Source: Bacteroidota bacterium
GTDB lineage: Bacteria > Bacteroidota > Bacteroidia > NS11-12g > UBA9320
DNA: 64,000 nt
Assembly (NCBI GenBank): GCA_016124755.1
Contig: WGNA01000016.1
Location: 62,001 to 126,000 of the forward strand
Reading direction: 5' to 3'
The notes beneath the pieces were generated by a model. It ran no database searches. It was not told where the DNA came from and worked only from the letters and a program-made list of their open reading frames with translations. The translations under genes were made by a program, and so were the position numbers. Position 1 is the stretch's first letter. Every line of letters begins with the position of its first letter. This document shows positions 59,814-60,350 of this stretch, one piece after another.

Positions 59814-60350
59814 TCCATTAAGAGCAGAAGAGCAATAGAGCGGGAAGAGCGTTGGATTCTTCGCTGTGCTCAGAATTTGAATGCAAGCACACTCTCGCTC
59901 TAAAGCTCTCATGCTCTTTAAAAGTTCTGTTACCGTTACTGTTACCGTTACTGTTACCGTTACTGTTACTGTTACTGTTACAGGATGCGGTTGCTTCGCT
60001 TCGCTCAGCATGACGAGGACTCCGATGGTAGTACAGGGATTCTTCGCTTCGCTCAGAATTTTAAGGAATACGTTCTCTCGCTCTCACGCTCTTTCAAAGA
60101 CCCGTTACTGTTACAGTTACAGTTACAGTTACCGTTGCAGAATTTGGTTGCTTCCCTTCGCTCAGCATGACGGGGACTTCGATGGTGGAATTAGGGATTC
60201 TTCGCTGCGCTCAGAATTTCAATGCAAACGCTCTCTCGCTCTCCCGCTCTCCCGCTCTTTCTAAATCCCGTTACTGTTACAGTTACCGTTGCAGAATTCG
60301 GTTGCTTCCCTTCGCTCGGCATGACGAGGACTCCGATGGTGGAATTAGAG

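Follow-up and report, generated by a model that had tools for sequence, protein, structure and literature searches.

Direct hairpin doublets around a small GIY-YIG nuclease gene in a Bacteroidota genome: a possible derivative of nuclease-associated repeats

The closest described system to the repeats reported here is that of the Ssn-type GIY-YIG single-strand nucleases and their NTS repeats, which were reportedly studied in Neisseria (Nat Commun, 2025). That system reportedly has a small single-domain GIY-YIG gene, flanking hairpins with GTC and CYC, and many dispersed copies, all of which are found here as well; unlike it, the hairpins described below form same-orientation pairs at 24 to 29 nt, with GTC and CYC split between the two. 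No member of the GIY-YIG nuclease family is known to act on a composite substrate of two hairpins. Literature searches on the repeat core, on GIY-YIG genes with repeats and on Ssn/NTS found nothing relevant in the collection searched. The REP and REPIN sequences that go with RAYT genes are likewise short dispersed hairpins acting in pairs. However, the two hairpins of a REPIN are inverted, with a GTAG/GGAG foot and a Y1 gene that goes with them, whereas the pairs here are direct, lack that foot, have GTC as their conserved flank instead (GAC on the listed strand, 78 of 80 copies), and do not occur near any of the three genes for Y1 transposases in the genome. The initial annotation had drawn an analogy with REPINs and called the doublets distinct from them; the distinctness holds, and the nearest kin, which it did not foresee, are not REPs but the GTC-hairpin-CYC repeats beside small GIY-YIG genes. 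The PATEs derived from IS200/IS605 elements share two hairpins in the same orientation, but the flanks of our doublet face inward and it has no associated Y1 gene. Repeats of the GTCATTCTGAGCGAAGCGAAGAATCTC type, known from many phyla, have the same loop core and stem logic, but each of them is a lone hairpin that carries both flanks, and their spacing is broad.

The stretch of DNA that we analyzed (the window) is 64 kb long and corresponds to positions 62001-126000 of contig C18 in a genome of 4.05 Mb and 39 contigs. Six doublets, each a type-A hairpin followed by a type-B hairpin, had been annotated in it, and all six intervals hold exactly the A and B claimed, in the same orientation (Table 1). 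The two hybrids between A and B have the form that a deletion between the two similar loops would produce. A truncated A hairpin (GGGGTTCTTTCGCTTC) is found at 24382-24397, approximately 170 nt before the doublet at 24558. Other repeats accompany these features. Hexamers of the form GTTACN are found with the arrays (53375-53467, 56138-56224, 59731-59818, 59926-59982, and 60100-60140), and they also enter open reading frames, namely 56129-57430 at its 3' end, 52805-53665 internally, and the aldehyde dehydrogenase frame 58343-59818 at its start. Around the single doublets at 20.6 and 24.6 kb lies a second repeat family, which forms an imperfect inverted pair (TTTATGCTGACAATGCCG ... GGCATTCGTCAGTAATTC), and the regions 20280-20855 and 24418-24920 are 82 to 99% alike over long stretches.

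Table 1. Hairpin features and the GIY-YIG gene in the 64-kb window
Feature	Position	Strand
Single A-B doublet, stem A TCTT..AAGA	20586..20653	+
Single A-B doublet	24558..24625	+
B hairpin without A	59856..59876	+
First A-B doublet of the array	59992..60059	+
Second A-B doublet of the array	60149..60217	+
Third A-B doublet of the array, adjoining the GIY-YIG stop codon	60303..60371	+
Small GIY-YIG nuclease gene, 104 aa, between doublets	60373..60687	-
A-B doublet immediately before the start of the GIY-YIG gene	60706..60775	-
A/B hybrid hairpin joining the left half of A to the right half of B	60952..60973	+
A/B hybrid hairpin	61057..61078	+

Genome-wide counts were obtained by pattern searches and from fetched stretches of the genome. 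The search pattern, GCTCANNATGACN{10,40}GATTCTTC, leaves 10 to 40 free positions between the A and B parts and gave 89 matches in the genome, against 0 for a reversed-pattern control; among the matches listed, about 20 to 25 free positions were used although 10 to 40 were permitted. Seen from the B side, approximately 97 of 100 type-B hairpins in the genome are preceded by a type-A hairpin of the same orientation, 24 to 29 nt upstream (mode 27). The strict pattern finds the A of 86 of them, and reading the other 14 by eye adds 11 that are degenerate or cut by the end of a contig, leaving about 3 B hairpins alone. The fetched stretches contain 34 clusters, of which 16 are single doublets and 18 are arrays with 2 to 7 units; every A-B pair is in direct orientation, and inside arrays 72 to 267 nt separate a B from the next A. 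With the gap counted between the closing AT of A and the opening ATTCT of B, the 80 strict doublets of the fetched loci have gaps of 24, 25, 26, 27, 28, and 29 nt in 3, 10, 18, 32, 14, and 3 cases; on this scale the doublets of the window have 27 to 28 nt, equivalent to the 28 to 29 nt given in the initial annotation. The gap had been described there as fixed, and it is indeed narrow genome-wide, spanning 24 to 29 nt instead of being strictly constant; neither a broad distribution of gaps nor a majority of single hairpins was found.

The sequences that face the linker are conserved, with GAC after A in 78 of the 80 doublets and [GA][GA]G before B in 79, in agreement with the (T)GACG and RGG/GAG noted earlier. 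The outer flanks are non-canonical: the triplet before A is GTT, with GAT in a single copy of 80, and GAC never follows B (0/80). GTC (on A', the A hairpin read on the opposite strand) and CYC (on B') are thereby split over two hairpins, both toward the linker. One A hairpin of the 80, that of the doublet at 60706-60775, carries both canonical flanks (GTCAT ... ATC, plus strand). The linker itself has diverged in sequence while its length is confined to six values. The A-B pair behaves as one unit, its order, orientation and spacing being kept while the middle of the gap diverges; it may also be recognized as one unit, as had been proposed.

The two stems differ in how they vary. Stem B is constant (ATTCT/AGAAT), and stem A has GT/AC, GG/CC, CG/CG, GC/GC, CT/AG, TC/GA, or AC/GT at its variable positions. 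Both of these pairs are Watson-Crick in 26 of 36 distinct locus types, whereas 10,000 shuffles of the stem A partners gave 4.8 fully Watson-Crick types on average and never more than 13; stem A varies by compensatory change. Among distinct cases of wobble pairs that can form on one strand only, 17 are on the strand opposite to the one used in the initial annotation and 2 on the annotated one, so that we take the opposite strand as the one that folds. On it the interior of the hairpins reads GA-GC-GNA-GC-GA, that is, a GNA triloop, two GC pairs, and tandem G.A, where the annotated strand would carry C.T mismatches. GNA triloops and tandem G.A pairs are stable motifs in both DNA and RNA. The order on the folding strand is B' (ATTCT-GA-GC-loop-GC-GA-AGAAT), CYC, about 20 nt, CGTC, A' (AT-nn-T-GA-GC-GNA-GC-GA-A-nn-A), and ACC. 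Since the predicted folding energy of the doublets is no better than that of shuffled sequences on either strand, our claim of pairing is based on covariation and not on stability. The tip loop of B is one base shorter in four arrays (L021, L028, L029, and L038, on contigs C8, C16, C17, and C21) with the paired positions kept; hence, the sequence and size of this tip seem to be free. Most copies are intergenic. Their orientation with respect to neighboring genes is mixed, with nothing consistent, and the GC skew of the loci gave no replication-strand bias (12 negative, 15 positive).

Exact matches to the doublet number 73 in the source genome, and of 398 other genomes of the phylum one has a match, a single one with a shorter gap. 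The pattern is absent from 59 relatives of the same family and order, none of them close enough to reveal empty sites. Other Bacteroidota loci contain consecutive hairpins on the same strand, with broad spacing and full flanks. Doublets with half flanks were looked for in 80 such loci, and the three pairs found were chance-like; a possible A/B-like pair with a 30-nt gap in Sphingobacterium mizutaii (L106) is alone in that genome. The doublet is essentially private to the source genome or its lineage.

Such a restricted distribution is what would be seen if the doublet were a neutral or selfish satellite, i.e., one ancestral tandem pair of GIY-YIG-type hairpins copied around the genome with its spacing inherited and not selected. 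Shared ancestry is also evident in the linkers, whose middle part has an identity of 0.87 within arrays and 0.45 between arrays, compared to 0.31 expected from composition. The near-identity of units within an array reduces the independent observations to about 30. Shared ancestry explains part of the constancy of linker length, and the constant spacing may be partly inherited from one ancestral pair. However, the gaps have diverged strongly and differ by up to 5 nt in length yet never fall outside 24 to 29 nt, and stem A has kept its pairing through many compensatory changes. We therefore consider a satellite unlikely, although it keeps a real share of our belief.

The gene lying between doublets in the window codes for a protein with a GIY-YIG domain (Pfam, E = 5.6e-15) and with all the residues conserved in 85 homologs (Y10, Y21, G23, R31, H35, E69, K73, R77, K80, and N88); sequence searches of NCBIfam and PDB with this protein gave no match. 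It is thus a small single-domain GIY-YIG gene flanked by multicopy hairpin repeats. Given this location, the phylum was searched with the protein encoded in the window as sole query, and 231 of 399 genomes had a match. We fetched 80 neighborhoods with 85 GIY-YIG genes and scored them for GTCAT-stem-loop-ATC hairpins within 400 nt. A hairpin was found for 63 of the 85 genes, on the 5' side in 55, on the 3' side in 58, on both sides in 50, and on neither in 22, several of which carry related hairpins outside the strict definition. In the same loci, at distances beyond 3 kb, the background is 0.096 hairpins per kb, from which about 0.14 genes would be expected to have hairpins on both sides. The two hairpins nearest to a gene vary in their relative orientation, the inverted arrangement (+,-) being the most common (22 of 50).

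Single GTC-stem-loop-CYC hairpins across Bacteroidota often share the GA-GC-GNA-GC-GA core. The core GAGCGNAGCGA is found beside small GIY-YIG genes in Pedobacter frigidisoli and in metagenome-assembled genomes of Bacteroidia, Lachnospiraceae, and Zetaproteobacteria. At UvrC-type GIY-YIG loci of the same genomes, 9 of 10 have no comparable hairpin, the exception being Sulfurihydrogenibium. The single hairpin RGATNCTTCGCTNCGCTCAGNATGAC, read from the other strand as GTCAT-hairpin-ATCYC, occurs in many phyla among the matches listed with one genome per species, and most of the pattern matches listed for all species are tandem copies of ordinary single hairpins.

The source genome codes for about six small GIY-YIG genes, of which a single one adjoins doublets, and most doublet arrays are far from any of them. 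A second gene (contig C32, 427-696) has another inverted hairpin, GTCATCCCGGANNNNNNTCCGGGATCTC, on either side (L043:305-335 and L043:806-840); hence, several GIY-YIG/hairpin pairs, each with its own specificity, may coexist in one genome. Three further loci are directly beside a tRNA gene (Arg, Glu, and Lys), on C23 (L045:175-900), C28 (L046:4011-4528), and C31 (L048:3903-4435). In the three of them a partial copy of the tRNA, or of its downstream stretch, comes after the GIY-YIG gene, as if the gene had been inserted with a duplication of the tRNA end, and on C23 the GIY-YIG gene together with the tRNA fragment forms a tandem repeat (300 nt, 96%).

In ordinary family members every hairpin is flanked by GTC at its 5' end and by CYC at its 3' end. 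In this genome, with one A hairpin of 80 excepted, only the pair carries both, and for this reason we class the doublet as a variant and not as a plain member of the family. Judging from sequence comparison, the chances seem about even that it derives, as a composite of two hairpins, from the repeats found with small Ssn-type GIY-YIG nucleases, which are probably the single-stranded DNA substrates of these enzymes. An origin from ordinary hairpins of this type fits the fact that the A hairpin with both flanks adjoins the window gene upstream. We propose more tentatively, as a possibility that deserves mention, that the GIY-YIG system has its recognition flanks distributed over two hairpins and reads them in single-stranded DNA only jointly, at a set distance. 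On the main reading, the nuclease of the window, or a paralog, would bind both hairpins in DNA made single-stranded by replication, DNA uptake, or repair and would cut at GTC and/or CYC, within the linker or next to it, and the spacing would be set by a two-site nuclease complex. Local multiplication could proceed by unequal recombination between direct repeats, with the A/B hybrids as an expected by-product, and copies might reach new loci with the nuclease or by means of it.

Two hairpins in direct orientation and specificity for single strands would also fit the general logic of IS200/IS605, and with three Y1_Tnp genes in the genome, a nonautonomous Y1 (HUH) element of the RAYT or IS200/IS605 type, with A and B as left-end and right-end hairpins, has to be considered. 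We find it improbable: the 9 kb fetched around each of the three Y1 genes contain no such hairpins, which also led us to reject a RAYT/REPIN origin, the GTAG/GGAG foot is absent, the conserved flanks point inward whereas the cleavage sites of IS200/IS605 are outside the hairpins, and no empty site is known. A two-hairpin structure in a transcript (a stabilizer, attenuator, or processing site) would agree with the favored strand, with the mostly intergenic copies, and with GNA triloops and tandem G.A pairs being good RNA motifs too, but the mixed orientation to neighboring genes, the tandem copies of up to seven, unusual in regulatory RNA, and the lack of any Rfam family match (Rfam 15, 0 above the gathering score in the window) make it equally doubtful.

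Repeats of the GTC-hairpin-CYC form are very common between bacterial genes, and their strong enrichment beside small GIY-YIG nuclease genes in one phylum, with examples in two others, now connects them to these enzymes. The doublet lineage, with its spaced pair and compensating stem, amounts to a natural experiment on the strand that folds, the flanks that matter, and the spacing that is tolerated; therefore, the recognition rules of these nucleases become directly testable. If our reading of the doublet as a GIY-YIG-associated composite is true, one lineage would have spread a two-hairpin substrate through its whole genome as a system of arrays.
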